From NCBI GenBank assembly GCA_003151975.1, contig PLZD01000031.1, forward strand, positions 140,488 to 204,487: a stretch of 64,000 nucleotides of DNA. Reading direction: 5' to 3'. Position numbers and translations under genes: made by a program. Position 1 is the first letter of the stretch. Every line of letters begins with the position of its first letter. This document shows, in pieces, positions 2,816 through 61,769 of the stretch. The notes under the pieces are model-generated. The model ran no database searches. It was not told the origin of the DNA and was given only the letters and a program-made list of their open reading frames with translations. The stretch is from Elusimicrobiota bacterium. Lineage in GTDB: Bacteria > Elusimicrobiota > Elusimicrobia > UBA1565 > UBA9628.

Positions 2816-3816
2816 CGCGCCTTGCTCCAGGAGGGGGGAAGATTCTTCATGATCTCGATGGCGCCGAAGGTCGAGGGCTCGTTGGGGCCGGCCTTCTTGG
2901 CCCACTCCGCCATGCGCCGCAGGCCTTCTTCCAGCGCGAGGCCCTCGGAGAGATCTCCGAAATCGCGTTTGAGCTTTTCGTGCGACGAGAACGCGTGGAC
3001 GACCTCGTTGCGCGCGGGCAGGTGCTTGATCTTGGGCGCGACTCCCATCGCCTTGGCGACGAGCTCGGCGAGCTCGTTGACGGTCGTCGCCTTATCGGCG
3101 CCGACATTGAAGACCTGGCCCCAGGTCTGAGTCCGCTCGACGGACCGCGCGATGGCCGGAGCGACTCCCGAGATGTGCGAGAAGGCGCGCGACTGCTTCC
3201 CGTCGCCGAAAATCGTCATCTCCTCGCCGCGCATGGCCTGGTTCATGAAGATGCCGATCACGTTGCGGTAGCGGTCGCCGAGGTTTTGCCGCTCGCCGTA
3301 GACGTTGTGCGGGCGGAAAATCACGTAGGGCAGGCCGAACATCGCGCGGGCGGCGGCGAGGTCCTGCTCGACGGCGAGCTTCGCGATGCCGTAGGGGTCC
3401 TCGGGATGCGGCGTCATCTCCTCGCGCATCGGCGGCTCGTTGCCGCCGTAGACCGCGATCGAGGAGGTGAAGACGAAGCACTTGACGGTCCCCGCGTTGA
3501 CCGCGGCGTCGACGAGATTGACGCTGCCGATGACGTTGTTCGAATAATTAAACCGCCGGATGAAATGGCTCAGGCCTTCGGCGGCGTAGGCCGCGAGATG
3601 ATAGACGAAGTCGAAGCGCTCGGCGGCGAAGAGTTTCTCGAGCATTTCGTGATCCAAGACGCTGCCCTTGACGAACCTCGCGCCTTTCGGGACATTCCAC
3701 TCGGCGCCCCCGCTGAGGTCGTCAACGACGACGACTGAGTGTCCCATGTTCACGAGCTCTTCGGCGACATGCGAGCCGATGAACCCCGCGCCGCCCGTCA
3801 CGAGCGATTTAGGCAT
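2812..3816 (-). CDS. NAD-dependent epimerase/dehydratase (extended SDR, UDP-sugar epimerase type)
   Basis: 334 residues, the usual length for extended SDR sugar enzymes. The Rossmann motif TGGAGFIGS is at residues 7-15. The catalytic set is Ser118/Ser119 and the YxxxK motif Y142-G-I-A-K146. RPHNVYGE (about 168-175) is the sugar-binding loop. It probably interconverts or dehydrates an NDP-sugar feeding the adjacent glycosyltransferases; the sequence alone does not separate a 4-epimerase from a dehydratase. A more canonical GalE is at 49256-50266, so this one may have another substrate. It lies one base downstream of the GT2 gene starting at 4522 and is probably co-transcribed with it. Confidence 0.88.
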   Translation of the reverse strand: MPKSLVTGGAGFIGSHVAEELVNMGHSVVVVDDLSGGAEWNVPKGARFVKGSVLDHEMLEKLFAAERFDFVYHLAAYAAEGLSHFIRRFNYSNNVIGSVNLVDAAVNAGTVKCFVFTSSIAVYGGNEPPMREEMTPHPEDPYGIAKLAVEQDLAAARAMFGLPYVIFRPHNVYGERQNLGDRYRNVIGIFMNQAMRGEEMTIFGDGKQSRAFSHISGVAPAIARSVERTQTWGQVFNVGADKATTVNELAELVAKAMGVAPKIKHLPARNEVVHAFSSHEKLKRDFGDLSEGLALEEGLRRMAEWAKKAGPNEPSTFGAIEIMKNLPPSWSKAR

Positions 3817-3817
3817 G

Positions 3818-4522
3818 TCAGCCCAGGAACCTGCGGCAGAGGATCAGCCAGATCATGCGCATGCCGAGGATGAACGCCTTCTTCGGATCGCCCGTGATCT
3901 TGGATTCGCCGATGCGCGGGCCGTAGTGCAGCGGGATCTCGACGACGCGCAGGCCGGAGCTGATGGCCGTGAGCATCATCTCGGGGGAAAAATGGCTGGC
4001 GCCCACGCGGAACTTGTCCTGGATCTTGGCCAAGGCTTCCTTGTGGATCATCCGGTAAGTGCAGCCCACGTCGGTCAGCGACGGACCGTTGAAGAGGAAT
4101 TCGAGGAGCTTGGCGACGGCCCAATTGCCCCACTTGAGGAACAGCCCCATGTTCGCGCCGCGCGTGAGAAGCTCGCGCGAGGTCCGGCTGCCCAGGACCA
4201 TGTCGAACTCGCCGATGTAGGACAGCAGCTTCGGCATGTCGTCGGCCGAGAAAGTGCCGTCGGGCTCGCAGACCGCGATGAGTTCGCCGCCGGCCTCGCG
4301 CAGGCCGCGGCGGATCGCGTTGCCGTAACCCTGTTTCGTCTCAGTGACGACGCGCGCTCCGGCCGCTCTGGCGCGCTCGGCCGTCGCGTCGGTGGAATTA
4401 TTGTCGACGACGAGCACCTCGTCGACGAGGCCAAGCGCCAGGAAATCGGCCGCGGCCTTGCCGATGTTGCCTTCCTCGTTGAACGCGGGAAGCACCACCG
4501 AGACTTTCTGGCCTTTCCACAT
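3818..4522 (-). CDS. GT2 glycosyltransferase, dolichol-phosphate-mannose-synthase-like
   Basis: 234 residues forming a single GT-A domain. The N-terminus VSVVLPAFNEEGNIGK, then EVLVVDNNSTD and the QGYGNAIRRGL segment, followed by CEPDGTF, match polyprenyl-phosphate sugar synthases of the DPM1 type. Such enzymes charge undecaprenyl phosphate with a single sugar, which would supply the GT39-type membrane enzymes nearby. There are no C-terminal membrane spans, so it is a DPM1-like soluble or peripheral form. It starts the two-gene minus-strand unit with the epimerase. A TAGCAT box six bases upstream, with an extended TG, suggests a leaderless start. Confidence 0.88.
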   Translation of the reverse strand: MWKGQKVSVVLPAFNEEGNIGKAAADFLALGLVDEVLVVDNNSTDATAERARAAGARVVTETKQGYGNAIRRGLREAGGELIAVCEPDGTFSADDMPKLLSYIGEFDMVLGSRTSRELLTRGANMGLFLKWGNWAVAKLLEFLFNGPSLTDVGCTYRMIHKEALAKIQDKFRVGASHFSPEMMLTAISSGLRVVEIPLHYGPRIGESKITGDPKKAFILGMRMIWLILCRRFLG

Positions 4523-4528
4523 GGGAGG

Positions 4529-4534
4529 ATGCTA
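4529..4534 (-). promoter_or_regulatory. Extended -10 box (TGCTAGCAT) of the GT2 gene
   Basis: TAGCAT on the minus strand is preceded by TGC, the extended -10 form, and ends six bases before the ATG at 4522. It overlaps the divergent regulatory region of the gene at 4571. Confidence 0.5.
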
Positions 4535-4557
4535 GCAAACTTTTTTGCCGAAATTAG

Positions 4558-4563
4558 TATGAT
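4558..4563 (+). promoter_or_regulatory. -10 box (TATGAT) of the TylF-like methyltransferase gene
   Basis: TATGAT is followed by seven bases and the ATG at 4571. An in-frame ATG at 4559 lies inside the box itself, so the box position favours 4571 as the real start. Confidence 0.5.
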
Positions 4564-4570
4564 CAGGCGG

Positions 4571-5365
4571 ATGATCAAGGAACTCCTCAAGAAAGGCTTC
4601 TCGTCGCTAGGCTACGAGGTCCGCCGAAAAGTTGAGCCCGGCTGGGGCTACGACCTCAGCGCCGAGGCCGTCGCTGCCGCCGGTCGCGTCGCGCCCTACA
4701 CCATGCTGTCGATGGAGCGGCTCATCACTCTTTACCAACAGGTCGCGCACTGCGAGAAGATCGGCCTCCAAGGCGCGTTCGTCGAGTGCGGCGTCTGGAA
4801 GGGCGGAGGGGTCGGCATGATGGCGCTGGCCAACCTCAAGCACGGCAAGGCGCGCCGCGACATCCATCTCTTCGACGCTTTCGACGACATCTGCGAGCCC
4901 GATCGCGCCGTCGACGGCGCGGGAGCCGCGCGCGAGGCGAGCCTTTTCAGCCCCGGCGGGCAGGCGCAAGGGCGCCTGCAGCCGCTCAAGGGATTCTACG
5001 ACCACCGAGGCGGTCACGGCACCGTCGAGGGCAACCGCGACTTGCTCGAGCGCCAACTCGGCTATGATCCGGCGCGCCTGCATTTTCACAAAGGCTGGTT
5101 CCAGGACACCTTGCCCACCGACGCCAAGGCCGTCGGCCCCATCGCCCTGTTGCGCCTCGACGGCGATTGGCACGCTTCGACGATGGTCTGCCTCGAGCAT
5201 CTTTACGATCTCGTCGTGCCGGGGGGCTTTGTCGTCATCGACGACTACGGCTGCTACGAAGGCTGCAAAAAGGCCGTCGATGAGTTCCGTTCGCGCCGCA
5301 AGATCGACAACTTCCTGAACCACATCGACGAGACCGGCCGTTACTGGATCAAGAGCGGCCGCTAG
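4571..5365 (+). CDS. TylF/macrocin-type O-methyltransferase
   Basis: 264 residues. Family signs are ECGVWKGGG (SAM site, about residue 73), LRLDGDWHAST and VIDDYGCYEGCKKAVDEF, where the Asp pair is the expected metal/sugar-hydroxyl site of TylF-like (MycE/TylF) enzymes. These methylate sugar hydroxyls, so it probably O-methylates a residue of the surface glycan. The frame is open far upstream (to 3668) but that part is antisense to two real genes. The start at 4571 is chosen because of the TATGAT box just before it; 4559 is an alternative adding four residues. The next methyltransferase gene begins directly after its stop codon. Confidence 0.85.
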   Translation: MIKELLKKGFSSLGYEVRRKVEPGWGYDLSAEAVAAAGRVAPYTMLSMERLITLYQQVAHCEKIGLQGAFVECGVWKGGGVGMMALANLKHGKARRDIHLFDAFDDICEPDRAVDGAGAAREASLFSPGGQAQGRLQPLKGFYDHRGGHGTVEGNRDLLERQLGYDPARLHFHKGWFQDTLPTDAKAVGPIALLRLDGDWHASTMVCLEHLYDLVVPGGFVVIDDYGCYEGCKKAVDEFRSRRKIDNFLNHIDETGRYWIKSGR

Positions 5366-6014: not shown

Positions 6015-7097
6015 GTGGCCCGCGAGAGCCTGCTCGTCTTCAACGTCTCGGGCATCGGCGATTTTGTCGACTCCGTGCCGGCTCTGCGCGCCTTGCGCAA
6101 GGAGAGGCCCGGCGCCTTTATCGTGCTGGCCGCCGCCGAGAAAGTGGCGCCCCTGGCCGTCGGATGTCCCTTCGTCGACGAGGTTATCGCGCTGCCGACG
6201 GCCCGGGGCCGCGGCTTCCCCGCGCTCGGCGATCTTCCGCGCTGGCTGTCGAAGTTGCGTCCTCTGCGCGGCCGGTTTTCGACGGTCGCTTGCCTCTACG
6301 CCGTCTCGTCGCCGCTCGGCGGCTTGTGGCTGCGCGCCCTGCTTTGGTGGCTCGCGCCCGAGACGACGATTGGCCCGCGCTCGCACGGCCTCGGTAATTT
6401 TTTCTCGGAAATCGTCGACGATCCCGCACCGGGCGAGGACGCCGTCGAGGGCTACCTCAAGGTCGCCTCGCGCGTACCCGCCCCGGACCGGACGCTGGCG
6501 CTCTGGGCCTCCGACGAGGCGTTAAAGGAAACCAAGGCCTGGACCTCCGGGCTCGCAAATTGGGGCAAGCTCGACGGGCCGCTGATCCTCGTCGCCCTGG
6601 GCGGCGACCGCGCCACGCGGCACGAAAGCCCCGAGCGCGCCGCGCGCTGGCTGGGCCTGCTGCAAGCGAAGTTCGGCATTCGGCCCATTCTGTGGGGAAC
6701 GAAGACCGACCCCGGCTTGCCTTCGAATTGCGGCGTGATCTTCGAGGACGCGCGCGGCCGCTTCGGCGTCGCGCAATCCGCCGCGCTGTTCCGCTGGGCC
6801 GACGCCGTGATCACGACGCACAGCGCGCCGCAGCACTTGGCCAGCGCCTGGGGAGTCCCGACCGTCGTTCTCGTCGGCCCGGGCGACGCTGGGCTCTACC
6901 GCCCGCACCTGCCGGCCGAGAGCATGCGCATGCTGAGCCGCTCCGTGCCCTGCGCGCCCTGCTATTTCGAAAACTGTCCTCTGACCGGCGTCGACCACCA
7001 GAAATGCATGTCGCAAATCTCCCCGGAAGCGTTCGTGGAAGCGTTCGAGAGCATCCTTCCCGCCGTCCGCAAACGGACCGCCGCTCCGAAGTTCTAG
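6015..7097 (+). CDS. GT9 glycosyltransferase (heptosyltransferase family)
   Basis: 360 residues, typical for GT9. The N-terminus LLVFNVSGIGDFVDSVPAL carries the GIGD motif of ADP-heptose:LPS heptosyltransferases. The C-terminal domain has the ITTHSAPQHLASAWGVPTVVLVG segment, equivalent to the donor-binding GxxHxA region, and three cysteines in a PCAPCYFENCP motif. Its GTG start lies four bases after the preceding stop. A second GT9 is encoded at 8214. Presence of GT9 enzymes suggests an LPS-like core or heptose-containing glycan. Confidence 0.85.
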   Translation: MARESLLVFNVSGIGDFVDSVPALRALRKERPGAFIVLAAAEKVAPLAVGCPFVDEVIALPTARGRGFPALGDLPRWLSKLRPLRGRFSTVACLYAVSSPLGGLWLRALLWWLAPETTIGPRSHGLGNFFSEIVDDPAPGEDAVEGYLKVASRVPAPDRTLALWASDEALKETKAWTSGLANWGKLDGPLILVALGGDRATRHESPERAARWLGLLQAKFGIRPILWGTKTDPGLPSNCGVIFEDARGRFGVAQSAALFRWADAVITTHSAPQHLASAWGVPTVVLVGPGDAGLYRPHLPAESMRMLSRSVPCAPCYFENCPLTGVDHQKCMSQISPEAFVEAFESILPAVRKRTAAPKF

Positions 7098-9266: not shown

Positions 9267-10042
9267 GGGCGCTCTTTTTCATCTGGCGCTACCTTTACGC
9301 GGCGGCCTCGTGCCTTTACCTTTTCTGCGGCGGCTTCCTTTGCGAGCGTCACCGGACCTTCCTGTACGCGATCTGCCGGCACTTCGGGCTCGGGCCCTCG
9401 GTCCCCGATATTTTGCCGAAGGCGAACCTCTGGGAGCTGATCGACGACAAAGTCCTCATCGACATCCGCGAGCCGCTCGACGACAACGGCGGCATCTCGC
9501 CGCTGCAGCTCATGACGATCGCCAAATTCATCCGCGCGCGAAAGCCCGCCGCGATCCTCGAAATCGGCACGTTCCAGGGCCGCACCACGCTCAACATGGC
9601 GGCCAACTCGGAGCCGTCCTGCAAGATCTATACCTTGGACCTGCCGAAGCGGGACCTGGACGCGACCGCCTTGCCCGTCAGCGCCGCCGACAAGACGCTC
9701 ATCGACAAGGATCGCAGCGGCTCGCGCTTTGCGAGCACCGAACTCGGCGAGAAGATCACTCAGCTCTACGGCGACTCGGCCAAGTTCGACTTCTCGCCCT
9801 ACTTCGGCAAGATCGATCTGGTCTTCGTCGACGGCGCGCACGGCTACGAGTACGTGCTCAACGACAGCCGCATCGCGCTCAAATTGCTGCGCGGCGGCAA
9901 GGGCGTCATCCTCTGGGACGATTACGGCGGCTCCTGGGAGGGGGTCACGAAAGCCATCAACGAGCTCTTCCAACGCGAGGCCGAGTTCAAGCGCCTCGTG
10001 CGCCTGAGAGAGGGCGGCTTCGTATGCTACCTCAAGGACTGA
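9263..10042 (+). CDS. Class I SAM methyltransferase (Methyltransf_24 type) with hydrophobic N-terminus
   Basis: 259 residues from the GTG at 9263, which overlaps the stop of the GT9 gene. The N-terminal 30 residues are hydrophobic (RALFFIWRYLYAAASCLYLF) and may anchor the protein to the membrane. The catalytic domain has ILEIGTFQGRTTLN (motif I), VFVDGAHGYEYV and VILWDDYGGSWEGV, matching the Methyltransf_24 group often found in polysaccharide loci. The frame is open back to 8579 but that segment is antisense-free shadow of the GT9 gene, so it is not counted. Substrate probably a sugar. Confidence 0.8.
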   Translation: MRALFFIWRYLYAAASCLYLFCGGFLCERHRTFLYAICRHFGLGPSVPDILPKANLWELIDDKVLIDIREPLDDNGGISPLQLMTIAKFIRARKPAAILEIGTFQGRTTLNMAANSEPSCKIYTLDLPKRDLDATALPVSAADKTLIDKDRSGSRFASTELGEKITQLYGDSAKFDFSPYFGKIDLVFVDGAHGYEYVLNDSRIALKLLRGGKGVILWDDYGGSWEGVTKAINELFQREAEFKRLVRLREGGFVCYLKD

Positions 10043-11748
10043 CGGAAGACGGCGGCCGCCGCGCGCGCGTGATCCTCGGCGCGCTGGCCTTGCTGTTCGT
10101 CGCGCTCTGCGTGCCCTCGCTCAACCGGCCCATCGAGAAATGGGAAAACCAGAACTTTTCGGCGGCCGAGCGGCTGGCGACGACGGGAGGCCTCGGCGAC
10201 GCCGAGCAGATCGGGGCCATCTTGATCCATCCGCCCGTCTGGTGCTACACGATGGCCGCGGCCTTCCGGCTTTTCGGGGTCGGCGACGCTCAGGCGAAAA
10301 TTCCGGGACTGCTCGTCGTGCTCGCGACCGGATTGGTTCTCTTTTCCCTGGCCAAACTCGCGCTTGGCGACGAGCGCAAGGCGCTGATCGCGGCGGGGCT
10401 TTACCTCCTGCATCCGCTCGTCATTCAAGGCGGTCTCAGCGACGACTTCACCGACGGCACCTTGCTGCCGCTGGCCTTGTTGTCGTTTTTCGTCTGCTGG
10501 TTTCGCTCATCGTCATGGCCCGAGGCCAAGCGGACCGCCCTGCTGGCCGCCGTGTTTGCCGTCTGTCTCTGGACCAAGCTGACGACGCCGCTCGGCCTCA
10601 TCCCTTGCCTCTGGCTGTTCTCGCTCGTCAAGGACCGCGGCGTGCGCTGGAATCCGATCCAAAGCGCGTCGCTGATCGCGATCGCGGGCGGCGCCGCCTT
10701 TGCTTTGACTTGGAGCGCGTACTGCCGGGCCTTAAGCGCCTCCTCCGGCGTGCCGATGAGCGAGCTCTTGCTGCGTCCGCTCAAGTTCATCACGAACTCC
10801 GGCGGGGGGACTTTCTCGGTGACCGGCGTGCCCTGGCGCGACTACGCCGTCTTGTGGGCGCGCGCTCTGCTCTGGTTCGGCCCGCTGCTGTTTTCGACGG
10901 CCGCCTGGGCGATGCTCCGCCGAGTCAAGCAGCTCGCCGGCGGCGCCGAGACCGTAGGCCGCGACATCCTGCTGATCTTCGCGCTGATCGTCATGGCCGC
11001 CTACACGGTCATGCAGGGCGGCGCCGGAGCCTTCCCGAAATATTTCATCGCGCTCGTGCCGTTCCTGGCGCTTTACGCCGCCGACGCGATCGATTTCAAT
11101 GCCGGCCTCGCGGAGATTTCTCTGCTTTTCGCGGGAGGGCTCGCCTACTATTTCTTCATCGCCGGCGACCCGCTGTACGTCCTCAACTACGGCTTGCGCG
11201 GCTGCGCGCTGAACTCGGACTGCCGCGCGCAGGCGCTGCGCTTGGCGTTGAAGCTCGCGCTCTACGCCCTGCCGGTCGTCGGCCTCGGAGCCTTCAGCGC
11301 CGCGCGCTCCGAAAAACATTTTTTCTCGTCTCGAATCTTGGTCCTGATTTTCTCCGCGCAGACGGCGATGAGCCTGCTGCAGGCGACGAGCCCCTATTTC
11401 GTCCGGTATTTCTACGGCGCGTCGATCTCGGACTTTCGGAGCGCGGTCGAGAAGATCAGTGGCCTTCCGGAGCCGCGGACCGCGCTGGCGCCCGGCACTT
11501 TTCTGTTTCTCGCGCGCGCCCATAGCGTCCGCTGCGAGAACGCGCGCGGCAACGTCTGGGAGCATCCCGATGCCATCGAGCGATGCGTGGCGGACGGCGC
11601 TCCGCAGTCTTTCGTCTACGGCCTGCCGGAAAACACGATCGGCCAGGTCATGTCGATCTCGCGCGACAAAACCCTCGACGCAATTTTGGCGAGACGCTAT
11701 CGCAAACAAGCCGTTGGAGACTGGACGGTCTGGACTCGCGATGACTGA
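10024..11748 (+). CDS. GT39/ArnT-like integral membrane glycosyltransferase
   Basis: 574 residues from the ATG at 10024, which overlaps the preceding gene by 19 bases; a GTG at 10069 is a possible later start. Ten or more hydrophobic segments are visible, an early periplasmic loop carries KWENQNF and HPPVW (the D/E and HPP elements of the PMT fold), and a C-terminal soluble domain follows. It shares LWTKLTTP and GDPLYxLNYxL with the protein at 1124-2815, so the two are paralogues that probably use related lipid-phosphate sugar donors. Confidence 0.82.
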   Translation: MLPQGLTEDGGRRARVILGALALLFVALCVPSLNRPIEKWENQNFSAAERLATTGGLGDAEQIGAILIHPPVWCYTMAAAFRLFGVGDAQAKIPGLLVVLATGLVLFSLAKLALGDERKALIAAGLYLLHPLVIQGGLSDDFTDGTLLPLALLSFFVCWFRSSSWPEAKRTALLAAVFAVCLWTKLTTPLGLIPCLWLFSLVKDRGVRWNPIQSASLIAIAGGAAFALTWSAYCRALSASSGVPMSELLLRPLKFITNSGGGTFSVTGVPWRDYAVLWARALLWFGPLLFSTAAWAMLRRVKQLAGGAETVGRDILLIFALIVMAAYTVMQGGAGAFPKYFIALVPFLALYAADAIDFNAGLAEISLLFAGGLAYYFFIAGDPLYVLNYGLRGCALNSDCRAQALRLALKLALYALPVVGLGAFSAARSEKHFFSSRILVLIFSAQTAMSLLQATSPYFVRYFYGASISDFRSAVEKISGLPEPRTALAPGTFLFLARAHSVRCENARGNVWEHPDAIERCVADGAPQSFVYGLPENTIGQVMSISRDKTLDAILARRYRKQAVGDWTVWTRDD

Positions 11749-11760
11749 GGAGATCCTCCG

Positions 11761-14700
11761 ATGTGCGGCATAGCGGGCTTCGCGGGGCTCCAAGACCGCG
11801 AGCTGCTGGAGGCGATGACGCAGACCTTGCGCCATCGCGGGCCCGACGATTCCGGCTTCTTCCACGAGCAGGGCGTGGGCCTCGGCTCGCGGCGCCTGGC
11901 CGTCATCGATCTCGAGGCCGGGCCGCAGCCCGTCAAGAGCGAGGACGGCGGCGTCGTCGTGGTCTTCAACGGCGAGATCTACAACTTCCGCGAACTTCGC
12001 ACCGAGCTTGAGAATAAGGGACACATCTTCAAGACCCGAACCGACACCGAGGTCATCGCGCACCTCTACGAGGAGGCCGGACCGAAGGCGCTCGAGCGCC
12101 TATCAGGAATGTTCGCGGTCGCTATATGGGACGCCAAGCGCGAGACGCTCATACTCGCGCGCGATCCGCTGGGCGTCAAGCCGCTGTATTACGCCGTGCG
12201 GGGTGCTTCGCTCTACTTCGGCTCGGAGTTGAAGGCGCTCCTCGCGGCTCCCGATATCCCGCGCGAGATCGACCTCACCTCTCTCGGGCAGTACCTCGAC
12301 AATCTCTACGTGGGCGCGCCGGCCACGATCTACAAGGGCATTCGCAAGCTGCGGCCCGGCGAAGCCCTCACTTGGGAAGCCGGCCGGATCTCCACCCGTG
12401 TTTTCTGGACGCCCGTCCCGAGCCTCATTTCGCCTTCTCGGAACGAGGCGCTGACCGAGCTCGACGGCCTCATGCGCAAGATCATCGACGACCAGACCGT
12501 CGCCGACGTTCCCGTCGGGCTGTTCTTGAGCGGCGGGCTCGACTCGAGCGCGCTGGCGTATTACCTCGCGCAGGGCGCCCGCCGGCCCGACGCTTTCTGC
12601 GCACACTTCTCGACGGGCGGAGATGACTACAACGAAGTCGAGAAAGCGCGCGTCGTGGCCTCGCACTTCGGCTACAAGCTCAACGAGCTGCGCATCGAAC
12701 CCGACATCGAGGGCGTCCTAGACGCCATGGTGGAAGCCTTCGACGAGCCCCTGGCGGACTCCTCCGCCCTGCCGACTTATTGGATCAGCAAGCTCGCGCG
12801 CGCCACCGTCACGGTCGCTTTGACGGGAATCGGCGGAGACGAGGTCTTCGGCGGCTACCCGCGGTATCTGGGCGCCAAGCTTCTGCCGGCCTACCAGGCG
12901 CTGCCCGCCGCCGCGCGGGCGGCGCTGGCGCGCGCGGCCGGCGCGATCCCGGATCAGATGTCGAGCCGCAATATCGGCAGCTGGCTGCGCCGCTTCATCG
13001 AGAACGGTCCCGCCGGCGCGGAGGGCGCTTATGCCGCGTGGATGGGGCACTTGAGCCCCGCCGACAAGAGCACGCTGTTCGGGAGCGAACTGCTGCAGGC
13101 GCATCGCCCGGGCGAAGCCCTCAAGCGCGCCTTCGATCTGTGCGAGGGGGATTTCCTCAAGCGCGTGCAGGCCGTCGACTTGCGGACTTACTTGCCCGAG
13201 GACTTGCTGACCTTGGCCGACCGCGCCAGCATGGCGTCATCCCTCGAGCTGCGCGTGCCGCTCTGCGACCAGCGCCTCGTCGAATTCCTCGTCGGCCTGC
13301 CCGCCGATTTCCAAGTCCGCGGCATGACGCTCAAGCCCCTGCTCAAGGACCTGCTCGCGGGCAAGCTGCCCAAGGCCATCCTCGCGCAGAAAAAGCAGGG
13401 CTTTATGATCCCGCTCGGGATCTGGTTCAAGAGCGAGCTCAAGCCCTTGGTCGAGCGCAGCATCGCGGGCCTTGAGACCCGGGGGCTCTTTCACGCGGCG
13501 GGGCTCGACAAAATCTGGCAAGAGCACTTGTCCGGCAAGCGCAACCGCACCGATGTCATCTGGTCGTGGATCTTGCTCGAGCGCTGGCTGCAGCGCTGGG
13601 CGCCGGAATTCCGCGCGGGGCACGCTCCGAGCCCGGCCGCGTCGCGCGGCGGCCCCAGGTCGCGCGTCCTGCACCTAGTGACGCGCCTCGACGTCGGCGG
13701 CTCGGCGGAAAACGTCGTGCTGTCTTCCCAAGGCTCTCAAAAGGACGGTTTCGACGCGGCCATCGCCTCCGGGCCATCGCGAGATTTGACGGAGGCCGCG
13801 CGCGGCGTCGAGGTCCTCGTCGTGCCTTCGCTTAAGCGCGCAATCTCGCCGCTCAATGATGCGAGGGCCTTCCTCGAGATTCTCTCGCTTCTGCGGGCTT
13901 GGCGGCCCGACGTCCTGCACACGCACTCCTCGAAGGCGGGTCTGCTCGGTCGCTGGGCCGCGTGGGTCCTGCGGCGGCTGGGCGGCGGCCCCAAGCTCGT
14001 CGTCCACACGCCGCACGGCCACGTCTTCTACGGCTATTTCGGGCCGCTGAAGAACACGCTGTTCCTTTGGCTCGAGAGGCTGAGCGCTCACGCTTGCGAC
14101 GGCCTCGTCGCTTTGACCGAAGGCGAGATGCGCGACCACCTCGCCCTCGGCGTCGGACGCGAGGAGCAATGGACGGTCGTACCATCCGGCGTCGCGCTGC
14201 CCGTCGACACGGCCGCCGCCGACCGCGACGGCATCCCGGGCGACGCGCTGATCATCGGCTGCGTCGCGCGCCTGGAGCCCGTCAAAGGAATCGCCGTTCT
14301 GCTCGAGGCGGCGGCGCTCTTGCTGCCCAAGGTCAAGCGGCCCGTGCGCTTGCTGATCGTCGGAGACGGCCCGGAAGCCCAGGATCTGAAAATGCTGGCC
14401 GCGCAGCTGGGCATCGGCGATCGCGTCGTCTTCGCGGGCTACCAGCCGGAGCCCCTGCGCCTGATGAAGGCGATGGACATCTACGTCCAGCCCTCGCTCA
14501 ACGAAGGCATGGGCAAGACCTTGGTCATGGCGCAAGCCCTCGGCCTGGCGGTCGCGGCCTCGCGCGTCTGCGGCATCCCGAGCGTCGTCAAGGACGGCGA
14601 GACCGGCTTGCTGACGGCGCCGGGAGACGCCAACGAGCTCGCGGAGATTCTGGGAAAACTCGTCGACGAACCAGAGCTGCGCAAGCGTCTGGGCGCCGCG

Positions 14701-16173
14701 GCCAAGCGCTGGATCGCGAGTCCCGACGAGACCGGCGCGCGCTCCTTCAGCGTGGAGTCGATGGTCCTGCGCCTGGACAAGCTTTACCGCCGCGGCCTCG
14801 CGGCGCTCGGCCTCATCATCGCGTTGTGCGTCACATCGAACGCGCTGACCTTGAGGGCGGTGGCGCACGTGCACAGCGGCATCAGCCACAGCGGCACCGA
14901 GGATCTCGCCAAAATCGCCGAAAGCGCGGCGGCCAAAGGCATCGACGTCTTCATCCCCACGGACACCTTCGTCGCGGATTGGGAATACGGTCTCTGGCCC
15001 CTGCGGGGTCTCATCAGCAAGAAGGTGACGCAAAAGTCCGTTCTGACGGCCGGCATCGGCGCTTATCTGGCGAAGATCAAGGAAGTCCGTCGGCAATTCC
15101 CGAACCTCGTGGTGATCCCGGGTGTGGAGGCCGCGGCCTATTATCGCTGGGAGGGCCTGCCGTGGCGCGGGCTCACGATCCACGACTGGAACCGCCATCT
15201 GCTCATCGTCGGACTCGAGGACGCCGGCGCGTACGCGCGGCTGCCCGCGGCGGGCAACGCCCAGGGAGGACGCTTCGATCTCTTCCTGCTTTGGCCGCTG
15301 GCGACGCTCGCGTTGGGCTGGCTGGGATGGACGGCCACGCGACGACGAAGGTTTGCGATGATCGTGGTGCTCAGCGCCGTCTTTCTCGCGGACGGCTGGC
15401 CTTATCGCAGCCCGGCCGACAGCGCTTACGCGGCGCAGACCTCCTGGGCTCCCTACCAGAATCTCATCGACTACGCGCGCGGCGCGGGGGCGCTTGTGCT
15501 CTGGGCGCATCCCGACGCGACGAATTGGAACGACGTGAACGCGGGCGGCAAAGTCAGCGTGAAAACGGACCCCTACCCTGAGTCGCTTCTGCGCACCGTC
15601 GGCTACGACGGCTTCTGCGCGCTCAACGAGGGAATGCGCGGCGCCGGCTCCGCAGGAGGAACTTGGGATCAGGCCCTGTCCCTCTACCTCAACGGCGAGC
15701 GGGAGCGGCCCGTGTGGGCGGCCGCCGAGCTCGATTACCGCAGCGCGAAAGACACGCCCATCGACCTCGATCAGATGATCATCGATACGCCGTCGCGCAG
15801 CCAGAAGGACATACTCGCCTCGCTGGCGAAGGGCCGCTTCTACTCGGTCGAGGTCGCGACCCACCGCCTCGTTCTCAAGCGCTGGAGCCTGACGACGCGC
15901 GCGGGCTCGGCGGGCAGCGGCGAGACTTTGGCGGGAGCGGGGAGCCCCAAGCTCGAGGTCGAGCTCGCCTATGACGACGGATCGACGGGCGGCGTCGACC
16001 TTCAGATCATCGAGGGCGGCCGCGTGGTCAACGACGAACAAGTCTCCGTTCCGGGCCATTGGACCTTCAACTTCGATGACGCGCCGGCCAAGACGTTTTA
16101 CCGGGCCGTCGTCAGGGGGGCGAGCAACAACATGCTCATCACTAATCCCATCTTCGCGATCAATAAATCATGA
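11761..16173 (+). CDS. Triple fusion: asparagine synthetase (AsnB-like) - GT4 glycosyltransferase - membrane PHP domain
   Basis: One uninterrupted 1470-codon frame. Residues 1-620 are a complete AsnB-type amidotransferase: Cys2 after Met as glutaminase nucleophile, FNGEIYNF, RDPLGVKPLYY, and the ATP loop LSGGLDSS at 256-263. Residues 635-1005 are a complete GT4 enzyme starting VLHLVTRLDVGGS and carrying SLNEGMGKTLVMAQALG. Residues 1012-1028 form a membrane span, followed by a PHP-type metal-dependent hydrolase domain with HVHSG (H1036, H1038) and AHPD (H1250), interrupted by two more spans near 1173-1190 and 1197-1213. In glycan loci AsnB-like enzymes amidate uronic or amino-acid residues. 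No start codon lies just before the GT4 strand, so fusion is the direct reading; an indel in the assembly is the alternative. Confidence 0.85.
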   Translation: MCGIAGFAGLQDRELLEAMTQTLRHRGPDDSGFFHEQGVGLGSRRLAVIDLEAGPQPVKSEDGGVVVVFNGEIYNFRELRTELENKGHIFKTRTDTEVIAHLYEEAGPKALERLSGMFAVAIWDAKRETLILARDPLGVKPLYYAVRGASLYFGSELKALLAAPDIPREIDLTSLGQYLDNLYVGAPATIYKGIRKLRPGEALTWEAGRISTRVFWTPVPSLISPSRNEALTELDGLMRKIIDDQTVADVPVGLFLSGGLDSSALAYYLAQGARRPDAFCAHFSTGGDDYNEVEKARVVASHFGYKLNELRIEPDIEGVLDAMVEAFDEPLADSSALPTYWISKLARATVTVALTGIGGDEVFGGYPRYLGAKLLPAYQALPAAARAALARAAGAIPDQMSSRNIGSWLRRFIENGPAGAEGAYAAWMGHLSPADKSTLFGSELLQAHRPGEALKRAFDLCEGDFLKRVQAVDLRTYLPEDLLTLADRASMASSLELRVPLCDQRLVEFLVGLPADFQVRGMTLKPLLKDLLAGKLPKAILAQKKQGFMIPLGIWFKSELKPLVERSIAGLETRGLFHAAGLDKIWQEHLSGKRNRTDVIWSWILLERWLQRWAPEFRAGHAPSPAASRGGPRSRVLHLVTRLDVGGSAENVVLSSQGSQKDGFDAAIASGPSRDLTEAARGVEVLVVPSLKRAISPLNDARAFLEILSLLRAWRPDVLHTHSSKAGLLGRWAAWVLRRLGGGPKLVVHTPHGHVFYGYFGPLKNTLFLWLERLSAHACDGLVALTEGEMRDHLALGVGREEQWTVVPSGVALPVDTAAADRDGIPGDALIIGCVARLEPVKGIAVLLEAAALLLPKVKRPVRLLIVGDGPEAQDLKMLAAQLGIGDRVVFAGYQPEPLRLMKAMDIYVQPSLNEGMGKTLVMAQALGLAVAASRVCGIPSVVKDGETGLLTAPGDANELAEILGKLVDEPELRKRLGAAAKRWIASPDETGARSFSVESMVLRLDKLYRRGLAALGLIIALCVTSNALTLRAVAHVHSGISHSGTEDLAKIAESAAAKGIDVFIPTDTFVADWEYGLWPLRGLISKKVTQKSVLTAGIGAYLAKIKEVRRQFPNLVVIPGVEAAAYYRWEGLPWRGLTIHDWNRHLLIVGLEDAGAYARLPAAGNAQGGRFDLFLLWPLATLALGWLGWTATRRRRFAMIVVLSAVFLADGWPYRSPADSAYAAQTSWAPYQNLIDYARGAGALVLWAHPDATNWNDVNAGGKVSVKTDPYPESLLRTVGYDGFCALNEGMRGAGSAGGTWDQALSLYLNGERERPVWAAAELDYRSAKDTPIDLDQMIIDTPSRSQKDILASLAKGRFYSVEVATHRLVLKRWSLTTRAGSAGSGETLAGAGSPKLEVELAYDDGSTGGVDLQIIEGGRVVNDEQVSVPGHWTFNFDDAPAKTFYRAVVRGASNNMLITNPIFAINKS

Positions 16174-16850
16174 TCCTCGCAGCCCACCAGCCGCAATTCC
16201 TTCCGTGGCTCGGCTACTTCGACAAGATGCTGCACTGCGATCTCTTCGTGCTGCTCGACGACGTGCAGTACAAGAAAAACGAGTGGCAAAATCGCAACCG
16301 CATCTGGAGCCGGGAGGGCGGGCAGTGGCTGACGGTGCCCGTCCTGCACGAGTTCCCCTGCGAAATCCGCGCCGTGAAGATCAACGACACGACGCAGTGG
16401 AAGCACAAGCACGTCGCCACCCTGACGCAAACATACTCGCACGCCAAATCCTTCTCGCGCCATTGGGAGCCCTGGAAAAAAATGTATGATGCCGACCTCG
16501 GCACTTTGCTCGAGGTCAACCTATTCACGATCAATGAGATCCGAAAATCCCTGGAGATCGCGACTCCCATGAAGCTCTCCTCCGAGATGAAGGTCGAAGG
16601 CCGCTCGACCGAGCGCCTCGTCAATCTCTGCAAGGCGGCCGGCGCCGACACTTATCTTGCCGGCGCCGGAGGGCGCGACTACATGGACATGGGCCTCTTC
16701 GAGAAAGCGGGCATCAAGGTGATCTTCCAGCAGTACGCTCATCCGGTCTATTCGCAGTTCGACGCGGGCTTCGTGCCGAGCCTTTCCGCCGTCGACTTGA
16801 TCTGGCATCACGGAGCCGACGCGCCGCGCATCATGAGGTCGAAAGCGTGA
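16170..16850 (+). CDS. WbqC-like family protein
   Basis: 226 residues, the usual length for the family. The N-terminus ILAAHQPQFLPWLGYFDK and the segment LLDDVQYKKNEWQNRNRI are the diagnostic WbqC pattern. The family occurs in O-antigen and flagellin-glycan loci near aminotransferases, but its reaction is not established. It overlaps the fusion gene by four bases (ATGA) and the DegT gene by four bases (GTGA), so the three are translationally coupled and probably act on the same sugar. Confidence 0.9.
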   Translation: MILAAHQPQFLPWLGYFDKMLHCDLFVLLDDVQYKKNEWQNRNRIWSREGGQWLTVPVLHEFPCEIRAVKINDTTQWKHKHVATLTQTYSHAKSFSRHWEPWKKMYDADLGTLLEVNLFTINEIRKSLEIATPMKLSSEMKVEGRSTERLVNLCKAAGADTYLAGAGGRDYMDMGLFEKAGIKVIFQQYAHPVYSQFDAGFVPSLSAVDLIWHHGADAPRIMRSKA

Positions 16851-17893
16851 AGAAGATCATCCCGCACTCGCGCCCGACCTTGGGACGCGCGGAGGCCGCG
16901 GCCGCGTCGCGCGTGCTGCTCTCGGGTCAAGTCGCGCAAGGTCCCGAGATCGCGTCGTTCGAACGCGAGGCGGCGGACTTCCTGGGCCTGCGCGCGGCCG
17001 CCGCGGTCTCCACCGGCACGACGGCGCTCGAGCTGTCCCTGGACGCGCTCGGCGTCGGAGCCGGCCACGAAGTATTGATTCCGGACTACTCTTGCTCGGC
17101 TCTGCTGCACGCCGTGCGCAGGACGGGCGCGGAGCCCGTCCTGGTCGACTGCGAGGACGGCGGAGACAACGCCGACATGAGAGACGCCGCGCGCAAGCGC
17201 ACGCGCAGGACCAAGGCCATCATTCTGGTTCATCTTTTCGGCGAGACCGCGGACATCGCGGGCGCGCGGGCGCTCGGAGTGCCGCTGATCGAGGACTGCG
17301 CGCAAGCCCTCGGCGGACGATTTCACGGCAAGCCGTTGGGCTCGTTCGGCGAGGCCTGCGTGCTCTCCTTTTACGCGACCAAGATGATCACGACGGGGGG
17401 CGAAGGCGGGATGGTCGTCTCCTCCCATCAAGGCTTGGTCGAGCGCATCCGCGACCTGCGCGAGTACGACGAGAAGCCCGCGAGCACGCCCCGCAGAAAC
17501 GCCAAGCTGACCGATCTCCAGGCAGCCGTCGGGCGGGTTCAATTGGGGCGGCTCGATTCGTTCTTGCGGCTGCGGGCCAAGATCGCGGCGGCTTACGACG
17601 AGGCTTTCCGGGGCCTCGATGTCTTGATCCCGCGGGACCCCGAGGAAAGCGCGCATTTCCGCTACGTCCTGCGCCTCAATGCGGGCCGCCGCGACGCCGT
17701 CGCGCGCCGCCTGCTCCGATTGGGCGTTTCGGCGCGCGTGCCGATCTTCCGGCCCTTGCACCACGACATGGGAGGCGGACGATTCCCTCAGGCCGAGCGC
17801 GCCTGGAAGGAAAGCCTCTCGATCCCGTTGTACCCGTCGCTGAGTCCCTCGGACCAGGCGAAGGTGATCGCGGCCGTGCGCTCGGCCTTGTAA
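16847..17893 (+). CDS. DegT/DnrJ/EryC1/StrS family PLP aminotransferase
   Basis: 348 residues from a GTG start overlapping the WbqC gene. PLP-binding features are STGTTALELSL (phosphate site, about 55-65), D150 in EDCAQALGG, which contacts the pyridine nitrogen, and K179 in SFYATKMITTGGEGG, the internal aldimine lysine. These enzymes transaminate NDP-ketosugars to amino sugars, so the glycan probably contains an aminodeoxysugar. The Asn/Lys pair and downstream HF/RYVLRL region are consistent with a sugar substrate. The preceding WbqC-like gene suggests a joint step. Confidence 0.9.
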   Translation: MKKIIPHSRPTLGRAEAAAASRVLLSGQVAQGPEIASFEREAADFLGLRAAAAVSTGTTALELSLDALGVGAGHEVLIPDYSCSALLHAVRRTGAEPVLVDCEDGGDNADMRDAARKRTRRTKAIILVHLFGETADIAGARALGVPLIEDCAQALGGRFHGKPLGSFGEACVLSFYATKMITTGGEGGMVVSSHQGLVERIRDLREYDEKPASTPRRNAKLTDLQAAVGRVQLGRLDSFLRLRAKIAAAYDEAFRGLDVLIPRDPEESAHFRYVLRLNAGRRDAVARRLLRLGVSARVPIFRPLHHDMGGGRFPQAERAWKESLSIPLYPSLSPSDQAKVIAAVRSAL

Positions 17894-17938: not shown

Positions 17939-18745
17939 ATGTATAACGAATATTGGAAGCTGACAGAGCTCCCGTTCGAGAATAATCCCGACCCGAGATT
18001 TTATTTCGAGTCGGCGGGGCACGCCGAGGCGCTCTCGCGCCTTGAGTACCTCGTCAACGAGCGTAAGCCGCTGGGCGTGCTGACCGGAGTCTACGGCTGC
18101 GGCAAGACCTTGCTGCTCCACTCGCTCGCGACCGACATGCGCTTGCAGGCCGCGGTGTTCTCGACCGTCAACAACCCGCGCGTCGACGACCTCGGGATGC
18201 TGAGGATGATCCTCCACGGCTTTAAGAAAATCGATCCGCCGACGAACAAGGCGGATGTCCTCATGGAGCTCGAGAAATGGGCCACGGACACCGCCGAGGA
18301 CGGCAAGCACTCGGTCATCGTCATCGACGAAGCTCACGCCATCGAAAATGAGAAAACCTTCGAGGAGCTCAGGCTTCTGCTCAATCTGCAGACGGACAAG
18401 CGCTCGCTGGTGACCTTGCTGTTGGTCGGCCAGCCGGAGCTGCGGCCCCGCATCGAGAGCAACAAGCAGCTCAATCAGCGCGTCAGCATGCGCTGCCACC
18501 TGGGCCCTTTCGGCGCCGAGGAGACCGCGCGCTACATCAACCACCGTCTCGAGATCGCCGGCGCGCAAACGGAGCTCTTCTCGCCCGAGCAGACGGCCCT
18601 CGTGCACAAGCTCTCCGGCGGCATCCCGCGGTGGATCAACCAGATTTGCCATCTCAGCCTCATGGTCGGCTTCAGCAAAGAGGCGCAAACCATCACGCCC
18701 GAGATCATCCGCGAAGCGGTCCACGATCTCGTGGGGGTCAAATGA
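17939..18745 (+). CDS. ExeA/GspA-like AAA ATPase
   Basis: 268 residues. YWKLTELPFENNPDPRFYF is the N-terminal signature of ExeA-type ATPases. Walker A GVYGCGKT lies at 50-57 and Walker B VIVIDEAH at 126-133. The C-terminal segment SGGIPRWINQICH is the sensor-2/winged region. Close homologues sit in exopolysaccharide loci, where they accompany Wzc-like proteins; here it lies in an operon with a PIG-L deacetylase and a PNPT transferase. It lacks the C-terminal peptidoglycan-binding domain of true ExeA. It may power or regulate glycan export or assembly. Confidence 0.85.
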   Translation: MYNEYWKLTELPFENNPDPRFYFESAGHAEALSRLEYLVNERKPLGVLTGVYGCGKTLLLHSLATDMRLQAAVFSTVNNPRVDDLGMLRMILHGFKKIDPPTNKADVLMELEKWATDTAEDGKHSVIVIDEAHAIENEKTFEELRLLLNLQTDKRSLVTLLLVGQPELRPRIESNKQLNQRVSMRCHLGPFGAEETARYINHRLEIAGAQTELFSPEQTALVHKLSGGIPRWINQICHLSLMVGFSKEAQTITPEIIREAVHDLVGVK

Positions 18746-19365
18746 ACATTCTCGCCATCGGCGCGCATCCCGACGATCTGGAGTTCGGCTGCGCCGGCAC
18801 GCTCTACCGGTTTGCCCGCGAAGGCCACAAGATCCACCTCTTGATCTTGACTTCCGGCGAGATCGGCGGCGACTCGCATGTGCGCCGACAGGAACAGGAG
18901 GCCTCGGCCAAGGTCCTCAAGGCCACGCTGTCCTGGGGCGGCTTCCGCGACACCGACATCCCTCTGACGCGCGAGCTCATCCAGGAGATCGAGAAGCCCA
19001 TCAAGAAGTTGAAGCCCGAGATCGTCTTCACGCTCTTCAACGAGGACTCGCACCAGGATCACCGCAAAGTGTCGCAGGCGACCATCACCGCCTCGCGGCA
19101 CAGCCGCAGCGTGCTGATGTACGAGTGCCCGAGCACCTCCAACTTCAATCCCGTGATCTACTGCGACATCGGCCCGGTGCTCAAGCAGAAGATGGCCGCG
19201 CTGACCGCGCACCGCTCGCAAGTCTTTCAGACCAAGGTCCGCGACCTCTCCATCGTCGAGAGCGCCAAGGCGACCGCCATCTTCCGCGGCTATCAGGATC
19301 GGGTCAAATACGCGGAAGCTTTCGCACCGGTGCGCTTCGCTCTTCGCGCCGGCCTCTGGACGTGA
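18742..19365 (+). CDS. PIG-L family N-acetyl-sugar deacetylase
   Basis: 207 residues from the ATG at 18742, which overlaps the ATPase stop (ATGA). Zinc-binding and catalytic residues are H9-P-D11-D12 and H104-Q-D-H107, exactly the LmbE/PIG-L pattern. The family removes acetyl from GlcNAc-type residues, for example in GlcNAc-PI, mycothiol or bacillithiol precursors. Directly followed by a PNPT phosphosugar transferase (GTGA overlap), so a lipid-linked HexNAc is the most economical substrate. It has no signal peptide and should act in the cytoplasm. Confidence 0.9.
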   Translation: MNILAIGAHPDDLEFGCAGTLYRFAREGHKIHLLILTSGEIGGDSHVRRQEQEASAKVLKATLSWGGFRDTDIPLTRELIQEIEKPIKKLKPEIVFTLFNEDSHQDHRKVSQATITASRHSRSVLMYECPSTSNFNPVIYCDIGPVLKQKMAALTAHRSQVFQTKVRDLSIVESAKATAIFRGYQDRVKYAEAFAPVRFALRAGLWT

Positions 19366-20570
19366 CGAACTTCGACTTCTCGATCTCCCAAAAGCTCGGC
19401 GATCAGGCGCTTTCCCGCAAACAGATCGCCTGCCTGGTTTTCCTACTGTTCGTCATCCCGCAAGGCTGGATCTCGGCCTGGGCCTGGGAGCAGGACCTGC
19501 GCGGGCTCTACCTGATCCTGATCTCTTTCTTTTTCTCAACTTTGCTCGTGCCGTTTGCGATCTACCTCGCGATCCGCTTCATGATCCTCGACATGCCCTC
19601 GGACCGAAAGATGCACACGGCGGCGACGCCGCGCCTCGGCGGCTTGGCGGTCTACGGCGCGACCATGCTGACCTTGCTGCGCAACGATCAGTGGGACTCC
19701 GAGCTCATGGCTTTGGCCGCCGGCGGGACTTTGATCTTCATGCTGGGCGTCTACGACGACGCGAAAGGGCTATCGGCACGGATTCGTCTCATCGGCCAGC
19801 TGGCCGCGGCCGCCATCGTCATCGCGGGAGGCGTCTGCGTCGACTTTTTTTCCCATATCCCCGGGAAGCACGCCCTCGACGCTGCTCTGACGGCCTTCGG
19901 GATCATCGGGATCACCAATGCAGTCAACTTTCTCGACGGCATCGACGGGCTGGCGGGCGGCATGGGGGCGCTTTGCTCGGCGCTCTTCCTGGCGATCGCC
20001 TGGCCCGTCAAGCAGAAGCACTTGGCCTACGCTTCGTCGGCTCTCTGCGGCTCATGCCTCGGCTTCCTGCCTTTCAATTGGCAGCCCGCGCGCGTGTTCC
20101 TGGGCGACGGCGGCGCGACCTTCATCGGCTTCATGCTGGCGGGCCTAGGCGTCTTATGCACGCGCTCGGACGCCCAGCTTCCCATCGTGCGCGCCGCCAC
20201 GCCCATTATCATCTTAAGCATCCCGATCTTCGACATGATCTACACCACGCTCTCGCGCATCCGCCGCGGCGCGGTCCACAATTTCCGCGAATGGATCGAG
20301 TACACCGGCAGGGACCACTTCCACCACCGGCTCATGAAATTGGGCCTCAGCGCGCCGGGCGCCGTCAAATTTATCCTGCTGCTCAACCTTTGCATCGGAC
20401 TGAACGCGGTCGCCAACCGCTTCACCTCTCGCAGGATTATCTCGGCGCTGCTGCTGTCGCAGACCGCCCTCATCTTCGCGATCGTGGTCGTGCTGATGCT
20501 GCTCGGAAGGGAATTGACGGGACAGCACGACGACGAAAGCGCTCCGCGCCGCGAAAACGCTTCGCTCTAG
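19362..20570 (+). CDS. WecA/MraY-like polyprenyl-phosphate HexNAc-1-phosphate transferase
   Basis: 402 residues from a GTG overlapping the PIG-L stop. About ten membrane spans. Catalytic signature: MHTAATPRLGG (about 84-94), D132/D133 in GVYDDAKGLS, NFLDGIDGLAGG (D192, D195) and FLGDGGATFIGF; HHRLMKLG near 318 is the cytoplasmic loop-5 histidine motif. It should transfer a phosphosugar from a UDP-sugar to undecaprenyl phosphate, the first committed step of a lipid-linked glycan. It is WecA-type rather than MraY, as it lies in a glycan locus and has the HHRL motif. Its stop shares CTAG with the convergent coiled-coil gene. Confidence 0.92.
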   Translation: MTNFDFSISQKLGDQALSRKQIACLVFLLFVIPQGWISAWAWEQDLRGLYLILISFFFSTLLVPFAIYLAIRFMILDMPSDRKMHTAATPRLGGLAVYGATMLTLLRNDQWDSELMALAAGGTLIFMLGVYDDAKGLSARIRLIGQLAAAAIVIAGGVCVDFFSHIPGKHALDAALTAFGIIGITNAVNFLDGIDGLAGGMGALCSALFLAIAWPVKQKHLAYASSALCGSCLGFLPFNWQPARVFLGDGGATFIGFMLAGLGVLCTRSDAQLPIVRAATPIIILSIPIFDMIYTTLSRIRRGAVHNFREWIEYTGRDHFHHRLMKLGLSAPGAVKFILLLNLCIGLNAVANRFTSRRIISALLLSQTALIFAIVVVLMLLGRELTGQHDDESAPRRENASL

Positions 20571-21175
20571 GCGCCGCTTCGAGAAATAAAGTCCTTCATC
20601 AGCGCGAACTCATCGGCTCCCACGCCCCGCGCCGCGGGCGCCCTTTCAGCCTTCCTCTCTTTAGGCTGGGCGGGCGCTTCATCGGCCCTCACAGCGGCGG
20701 GCACGGGTTCGGGCGCCTGCTCGGTCACTGGCGCATGTCTGGGATGCCTGGTTGCCGGCGAGCGGCGCGGGGCGCGCAGCTCGTCGCGCAGGTCGTCGCG
20801 AAGAGCCGAGATCTCGTCCTGGAGTTGATCGACCTGCGACTGCAAGGCGTGGTTCAAATCCTGCATCAGCTTTTCGCTTTCGTGCAGGGATCGCAGTTCG
20901 CGCTGGAAATGCTTGCGCAGGGCCGTCAGGTCGCGGCGCAGGTCTTCGGCTTCATGGGGTTCTTCGGCGCGAACGAGCTTGCGCTCGCGGTCATCGACGT
21001 CGGAGAGCTGCCGGCGCAGAGCGTCGCGGATTTCGCCGAGCTCGCGGCGGACGGCTGAGAGCTCTTCGATCGCCGAACTCGCTTGAGGAGGAGGGTCCTC
21101 CTTCATCCCGAGACGCGAGAGGATCCTGTCGACTTCCCGGGAATTTCTTTCCTGCCAGTCGGAGCGCATATCCAT
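20567..21175 (-). CDS. Coiled-coil protein A, shares ends with the neighbouring paralogue
   Basis: 202 residues, no signal peptide and no family recognised. The N-terminus MDMRSDWQERNSREVDRILS and C-terminus DEFALMKDFISRSG match those of the protein at 21304-22053, while the middle (about 35-130) is a long charged heptad-type coiled coil and about 135-180 is Pro/Ala-rich linker. It looks like a rod with two conserved ends that may bind partners. Minus strand, preceded by TATAAT at 21205-21210 and a short leader. Convergent with the PNPT gene, sharing the CTAG stop. Confidence 0.75.
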   Translation of the reverse strand: MDMRSDWQERNSREVDRILSRLGMKEDPPPQASSAIEELSAVRRELGEIRDALRRQLSDVDDRERKLVRAEEPHEAEDLRRDLTALRKHFQRELRSLHESEKLMQDLNHALQSQVDQLQDEISALRDDLRDELRAPRRSPATRHPRHAPVTEQAPEPVPAAVRADEAPAQPKERKAERAPAARGVGADEFALMKDFISRSGA

Positions 21176-21303: not shown

Positions 21304-22053
21304 CTAGTCGCCTTGCTTTTCGAGGAAATCGCGCATGAGCGCGAACTCGTCGCGCTCGCCTCGAGCGCGAGGGGCCGGCTTCTCGGAGCGCGGCGCGGGG
21401 GGAATGATCTCGGGAGACTCTTCGGGCTGCGCGACCGGCTCGGGCGCTGGCGCGGCCTTTGCCGGCTTGCGGCGCGCCGCGCGGATTTCCTCGCGCAAGG
21501 CGCGGGCTTCCTCGGCCAGCCGCGCGGTCTCGAGCGCGATGGGATCGGGCGCGGCGGCAGGCGTCGCGGGCTCGGAGCGCCGCGAGCGCTCTTCTTTGAT
21601 CGCGCGCAGCTCCTCGGCCATCGCCTGAGACTCGGCGCGCAGCGATTGCAAGCTCAGAGCTTGAAGTTCGGCTTTGAGACGGACCGCTTCGGCGGTCGCC
21701 GACGGCTCTTGCGGGCGCCGCGCGGCGGCCTCAAGCGCCGAGCGCAGTTCGCGCCGGAAGGCCTCGATCTCCGCGGCGAAGTGGTCCTGGCCGGCCGCGA
21801 GCCGGCGGCTCTGCGCCTCGGTTTGCTCGAAACGGCGGCGGCCTTCCTCGCGCACGGCTCGCAGTTCCTGGCGAAAACCCTCGCGCATCGCGCGCAACTC
21901 GGCCGTCAGAGCCGAGAGATCGACCGAGGCGGCGCCCGCCGGTTTGGGCGAGGGGGCGTAATCGCCGCCGGGTCTCTCCTCAATGCGCAGGCGCGACAGG
22001 AGTTTCTCGACCTCCTGCTGGTTCCTCTTTTGCCAGTCAGCGGACATATCCAT
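21304..22053 (-). CDS. Coiled-coil protein B, paralogue of protein A
   Basis: 249 residues, soluble, unrecognised. N-terminus MDMSADWQKRNQQEVEKLLS and C-terminus RDEFALMRDFLEKQGD match protein A (20567-21175). The middle is a strongly charged Ala/Arg/Glu coiled coil in two segments (about 45-125 and 155-200), with a Pro-rich linker before the C-terminal motif. Divergent from the HTH gene at 22184. A TATACT box 19 bases upstream is the likely promoter. A role in cell structure or as a scaffold is possible but not shown. Confidence 0.75.
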   Translation of the reverse strand: MDMSADWQKRNQQEVEKLLSRLRIEERPGGDYAPSPKPAGAASVDLSALTAELRAMREGFRQELRAVREEGRRRFEQTEAQSRRLAAGQDHFAAEIEAFRRELRSALEAAARRPQEPSATAEAVRLKAELQALSLQSLRAESQAMAEELRAIKEERSRRSEPATPAAAPDPIALETARLAEEARALREEIRAARRKPAKAAPAPEPVAQPEESPEIIPPAPRSEKPAPRARGERDEFALMRDFLEKQGD

Positions 22054-60489: not shown

Positions 60490-60638
60490 ACGTGTCTCTG
60501 CATCGGGATTACCTGCCTTTCGTACTCAGAGGGGATTACGTCATGAGGCGTTGAATGAGCCCCGGTGCGATTATAATATATTCGCACAGATACAAAGATT
60601 CTTCTTTTTGCTTCGGCACGGCTCCTATTCGTCCGATC

Positions 60639-60667
60639 TTGACACGCTCTTTGAACCCGCCTATACT
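60639..60667 (+). promoter_or_regulatory. Consensus-like sigma70 promoter of the GT2 gene at 60684
   Basis: TTGACA (60639-60644), a 17-base spacer, TATACT (60662-60667). Transcription would start near 60674, ten bases before the ATG. This is the closest match to the sigma70 consensus in the window. Confidence 0.7.
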
Positions 60668-60683
60668 ATGCTGCCCCGCGACA

Positions 60684-61622: not shown

Positions 61623-61704
61623 GAAGAAAAACACTGTCGCCGATAAAGAAGGACTTTCAGCTTGGCCGACCGGCGCTGCCTGTAGTTTAAGCGTCCTTTC
61701 TTGT

Positions 61705-61710: not shown

Positions 61711-61769
61711 CTCCTGCGGGGTTTTATTCGCCCACTTCGGATTCTTTCATTTCCAAGCCCCTCACTCCT

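Follow-up and report, generated by a model that had tools for sequence, protein, structure and literature searches.

A Single 1470-Codon Frame Joins AsnB, GT4 and PHP-Like Domains in an Elusimicrobiota Exopolysaccharide Operon: A Probable Gene Fusion

Gene Content of the Locus

The window, a stretch of 64,000 nucleotides from an Elusimicrobiota bacterium (contig PLZD01000031.1), holds at 11761-16173 (+) a single ATG-started frame of 1470 aa, with a terminal stop only and no internal stop (Table 1). A sequence-only reading of this DNA had described one 1470-codon frame with three domains, and both claims hold: the frame runs without a stop from the first AsnB codon through the third domain, and its parts are recognized by Pfam (AsnB, GT4) and by NCBIfam and fold (PHP/CehA-like). 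Long stop-free 5' extensions are frequent in this GC-rich DNA (e.g., 9310-11748), so that upstream openness alone is no proof of fusion.

Table 1. Coordinates of the fused frame, its parts and its downstream neighbors in the window.
Feature	Coordinates	Strand	Basis
AsnB-GT4-PHP fusion, one 1470-codon frame	11761..16173	+	ORF reading, Pfam, NCBIfam, structure
AsnB-type amidotransferase, aa 1-611: class II glutaminase (Cys2) and asparagine-synthase domain	11761..13593	+	Pfam PF13537, PF00733
AsnB-GT4 linker, aa 612-634, Ala/Pro/Ser/Gly/Arg-rich, no in-frame start or stop	13594..13662	+	
GT4 glycosyltransferase, aa 635-1010	13663..14790	+	Pfam; alignment with 13 relatives
In-frame ATG, codon of Met1001 (conserved across the GT4 family); candidate internal start giving the hydrolase a signal-peptide-like N-terminus	14761..14763	+	
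TM segment (aa 1013-1031), formerly a signal peptide; signal peptidase may cut after TSNA (inferred)	14797..14853	+	Hydropathy 2.08
PHP/CehA-like metallohydrolase; TM hairpin (~aa 1174-1212) inside the PHP fold, C-terminal strand-rich region (~aa 1337-1467)	14860..16170	+	
WbqC-like gene, its start codon (ATG) overlapping the fused frame's stop; conserved downstream neighbor in relatives	16170..16850	+	Name by inspection
DegT-type aminotransferase; neighbor also in several relatives	16847..17893	+	NCBIfam TIGR03588 below cut-off
ATPase akin to XrtA/PEP-CTERM-associated ATPase; conserved neighbor	17939..18745	+	TIGR03015, 232 bits (below cut-off of 324.5)
PIG-L/BshB-type deacetylase; conserved neighbor	18736..19365	+	NCBIfam TIGR04001 below cut-off

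The order AsnB, other glycosyltransferases, GT4, hydrolase, WbqC-like gene, (DegT), TIGR03015-like ATPase and PIG-L is kept in most loci across the phylum. The relative of XrtA-type ATPases (TIGR03015) at 17939-18745 is encoded in a genome without a detected exosortase: EpsH (PF09721) was found in 0 of 8 genomes, this genome (G000) included, and the locus is therefore not classed as a PEP-CTERM system, despite its three XrtA-like proteins. Elsewhere in the window, the listed ORFs at 3668-5365 and 9310-11748 (+) look like real genes lengthened at the 5' end by stop-free sequence, and call for caution over fusions read from frames. Adjacent similar proteins starting MDMRSDWQERNSREVDRILSRL and MDMSADWQKRNQQEVEKLLSRL are encoded at 20567-21175 and 21304-22053 (-), an apparent tandem duplication, and the genes at 59716-62606 have a third-position GC of 0.44-0.69, against ~0.85 elsewhere in the window, which may mark acquired DNA.

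The Three Enzyme Domains

The AsnB part belongs to the class II glutamine amidotransferases / asparagine synthases (PF13537 + PF00733), with a Cys after Met, the glutaminase and SGGxDS, and with matches to GATase_7 (aa 44-162, E 7e-47) and Asn_synthase (aa 234-611, E 7e-80) that lie far above the Pfam cut-offs. Inspection located the MCGIAG start, Cys2, FNGEIYN (69), TDTEVI (94), LSGGLDSS (256) and GIGGDE (356), in agreement with the earlier statement that the N-terminal Cys and the glutaminase and ATP motifs are intact. The top NCBIfam model is TIGR03108 (XrtA/PEP-CTERM amidotransferase), at 512.7 bits, which is below the curated cut-off of 816.9. The nearest AsnB relative (G028) matches at 62-63% over aa 1-363 and is cut by a contig end; a search of that genome for the continuation found none.

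The glycosyltransferase part has both Rossmann halves above cut-off (PF13439/PF13579 + PF00534), with the GT4 N-domain at aa 630-810 (E 7e-20) and Glycos_transf_1 at aa 823-984 (E 1e-39), and is 41-49% identical to the 13 aligned relatives. An alignment of this part proved an effective search query, and its top-matching named records are Elusimicrobiota, with the genome of the window sitting among them. Searching genome contigs with the GT4-PHP protein matched no relative, and the hydrolase sequences diverge too far for their alignment to serve as a query.

The third part of the fused protein has no match to Pfam PHP (PF02811), for which one hydrolase relative scores 25.7 bits against a cut-off of 26.4. 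It is matched by NF038032 (CehA/McbA metallohydrolase) with an E of 7e-13 and 48.6 bits, below the 80-bit cut-off, and the same model matches all 19 members of the hydrolase family (E up to 0.001). An AlphaFold2 model built with the 19 members (mean pLDDT 91) has the PHP protein 3e38 as its top PDB match (E 1.6e-8), with modest TM-scores of 0.37/0.49, and the RNase AM PHP protein is also among the top matches; as modeled, the fold places the hydrolase in the PHP superfamily. Its metal site keeps H1036, H1038, D1068, E1123, H1146, H1250 and D1325 (HxH, D, E, H, H, D). The PHP part had been said to retain its histidines, and this is true of the HxH pair, H1146 and H1250, but the His of TDH is replaced by Thr1069, and that of the canonical D-x-H by Arg1327. 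The former position is Thr or Asp in 6/19 family members. Across Elusimicrobiota, the family represented at 14860-16170 conserves the hairpin in the PHP fold and the strand-rich C-terminus, and none of the Pfam models recognizes it above cut-off.

The C-terminal helix of GT4 leads directly into the hydrophobic segment at aa 1013-1031, which corresponds to the signal peptide or anchor of unfused hydrolases; relatives of the latter kind start at the matching position with signal-peptide-like N-termini. The hydrolase hairpin carries RRRR at its turn. Hydropathy and charge thus lend support to the topology put forward earlier, in which AsnB and GT4 would be cytoplasmic and the hydrolase would lie on the other face of the membrane.

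The Two Junctions

Ahead of GT4, no in-frame ATG, GTG or TTG occurs between 13573 and 13678, as expected from the sequence-only reading, which saw no usable start before the first GT4 strand; GTG 13678 itself falls within that strand. Separate GT4 genes of relatives begin a few residues ahead of the first strand, with ATG or GTG. When single-base indels were scanned at this junction, nearly all resulting starts were 26-38 codons too far upstream and entailed gene overlaps, and the few closer ones were inserted bases themselves creating GTG. Second-position GC in the linker is 0.89 vs 0.45, a value that fits an Ala/Pro/Gly/Arg linker and also former non-coding DNA. In the nearest relatives a GT9 gene separates AsnB from GT4, so a larger deletion, be it evolutionary or an assembly fault, could explain the junction. 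The GT9 at 6015-7097 in the window is ~29-33% identical to this GT9 of the relatives (the GT9 at 8214 only 25-27%), a resemblance consistent with gene rearrangement.

At the second junction, coding-type codon-position GC continues from GT4 into the hydrolase (0.61/0.45/0.94), and the single-base indel scan yielded no variant that gives the hydrolase a start. Taken together, the two scans indicate that a simple one-base error fails to explain the fusion. In most loci the GT4 and hydrolase genes are direct neighbors; four relatives show an overlap of 4-8 nt, and wherever the two genes adjoin in relatives their frames differ, so that in the course of evolution a small indel could have joined them.

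Distribution and Other Fusions in Related Loci

The hydrolase family occurs in 26/295 genomes of a phylum sample, and full-length matches occur in 11/235 genomes of the class, this genome being included in both counts. In every other genome that has it, the hydrolase is a separate frame of 357-579 aa, and neither the phylum (295) nor the class (235) sample yielded a second AsnB-GT4-PHP fusion; among the genomes searched, G000 alone has it. Separate genes in relatives and a fusion in this assembly only is the pattern that the sequence-only reading had named as telling against it; the samples show that pattern in form, but since the relatives compared are ~30-50% identical and all from other genera, it does not refute the fusion.

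The loci collected were also scanned for frames that carry two enzyme domains with no stop between them, with Pfam checks afterwards. AsnB is fused to GT9 in two congeneric species (G163 and G121) and in an Omnitrophota record, and to GT4 in G077 and an Aminicenantes record (all Pfam). A GT4 matching that of the window is fused to a methyltransferase in G102 and G153 (Pfam), and also in G227 and G071 (frame scan). In G017 and G189, the closest relatives having the operon, glycosyltransferases are fused to each other (Pfam): G017, the nearest relative, has a GT4-GT4-GT9 frame of 1072 aa (L031; contig C10, 11565-14780, -) immediately ahead of AsnB, and G189 has GT4-GT9 at that place. GT4-GT4 frames whose second half corresponds to the window's GT4 are present in a series of Nitrospira/Nitrospirota records (L119, L125, L131, L137, L139, L140, L144, L151, L156), two of which were checked with Pfam. 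G227, G071 and the Nitrospira series have a possible internal ATG or GTG near the GT4 strand, and separate initiation is possible in these frames; G102 and G153 have none close. AsnB frames of 782-1261 aa in several relatives (L084-L088) were rejected as fusions, as they look like stop-free 5' extensions. Enzyme fusion is a recurrent property of such loci, which makes the AsnB-GT4-PHP fusion likelier to be real.

Fusion, Artefact or Separate Products

We consider the AsnB-GT4-PHP frame, as seen in one assembly, to be a genuine, lineage-specific fusion of three neighboring exopolysaccharide-operon genes, with a probability of roughly 0.68. As the ends of AsnB and GT4 are without stop codons, read-through is forced, and since two real gene ends have lost their stops, we reject a chance joining of frames. 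The catalytic motifs of all domains are largely intact, and the frame is therefore not in decay. An artefact of assembly or sequencing, in which separate genes were joined by errors or by a collapsed stretch (e.g., loss of a GT9 between AsnB and GT4), is suggested by the fragmentation of the draft assembly (68 contigs), by the single occurrence of this fusion, and by the separate genes and intervening GT9 of the nearest relatives. Such an origin is nonetheless unlikely: it needs independent errors at two junctions, single-base changes restore no hydrolase start and almost no normal GT4 start, the flanking gene order agrees with that of relatives on both sides, and further fusions occur in this operon elsewhere. 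Very improbable is a separate translation of GT4 from the non-standard start CTG 13669, which has an AGG ~8 nt upstream, or from GTG 13678, with read-through from AsnB being incidental. Every ribosome that starts at 11761 would make the fusion, as no stop lies between AsnB and GT4; GTG 13678 would delete part of the first GT4 strand; and relatives use an ATG or GTG a few residues ahead of that strand.

Not far short of an even chance, in our estimation, is that the frame is real while its working products are separate, the hydrolase being freed by signal peptidase and/or initiated at ATG 14761, such that only AsnB and GT4 are fused. The segment MVLRLDKLYRRGLAALGLIIALCVTSNA is built like a signal peptide, as are the N-termini of the unfused relatives, and ATG 14761 has a GGAG 3 nt ahead of it. 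This spacing is short, however, and conservation of Met1001 in the GT4 family means that the ATG needs no start role. Separate products are compatible with a fused gene, and are not opposed to the fusion that we favor.

Proposed Function

If the fusion is genuine, then the AsnB domain may amidate a sugar, by analogy with the uronamides formed by WbpS and WbqG, and the tethered GT4 may add this sugar, or the one after it, to a lipid-linked glycan on the inner leaflet. The TM segment after GT4, formerly the signal peptide of the hydrolase, would put the PHP/CehA-like metallohydrolase on the outer face, where its substrate might, at a guess from the CehA and PHP families, be a glycan ester, amide or phosphoester. 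Fusion would fix the stoichiometry and membrane position of the enzymes. Cleavage behind the former signal peptide is possible, which would leave AsnB-GT4 anchored in the membrane and the hydrolase separate, and the hydrolase may possibly be made in addition from the internal ATG 14761. We tentatively propose, with more doubt than conviction, a single membrane-spanning chain of 1470 aa, combining cytoplasmic amidation and glycosyl transfer with a metallohydrolase on the opposite face: a two-sided glycan machine from a fusion-prone operon.

Read as a Rosetta stone, the fusion predicts joint action of the AsnB amidotransferase, its partner GT4 and the PHP-like membrane hydrolase, and we infer that their activities are functionally coupled. 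Taken with the other fusions, it marks this GT4 as a recurrent fusion partner. A testable grouping of steps in exopolysaccharide assembly results, which covers Elusimicrobiota and the similar loci of Nitrospira, Omnitrophota and Aminicenantes.

Comparison with Known Systems

Among the papers searched, none describes an AsnB-GT4-PHP fusion; domain fusion as such is known from polysaccharide loci. The hydrolase resembles CehA/McbA (NF038032) in sequence over its C-terminal half, and 3e38 in fold, and keeps most metal ligands; unlike these, it scores below the family cut-off, has a hairpin within the PHP fold and has lost two canonical His positions, and, unlike CehA/McbA, it is fused to GT4, in this genome only. 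The locus as a whole resembles XrtA/PEP-CTERM exopolysaccharide loci in its several glycosyltransferases and in the top NCBIfam models of its AsnB (TIGR03108), GT4 (TIGR03088) and ATPase (TIGR03015), although all three models score below their curated cut-offs and the enzymes here are fused. WbpS and WbqG, of the TIGR03108 group, convert uronic-acid sugars to uronamides (PMC7468200). These amidotransferases of the eps_aminotran_1 family are likewise AsnB-like enzymes of surface-polysaccharide loci with the same top NCBIfam model (PMC7468200), but they are described as separate genes, whereas the AsnB here is fused. The AsnB-GT9 proteins of G163 and G121 and the AsnB-GT4 protein of G077, likewise from Elusimicrobiota, differ from the present case in their glycosyltransferase and in a hydrolase that remains a separate gene, but share with it the same operon and an N-terminal AsnB in frame with a downstream glycosyltransferase.
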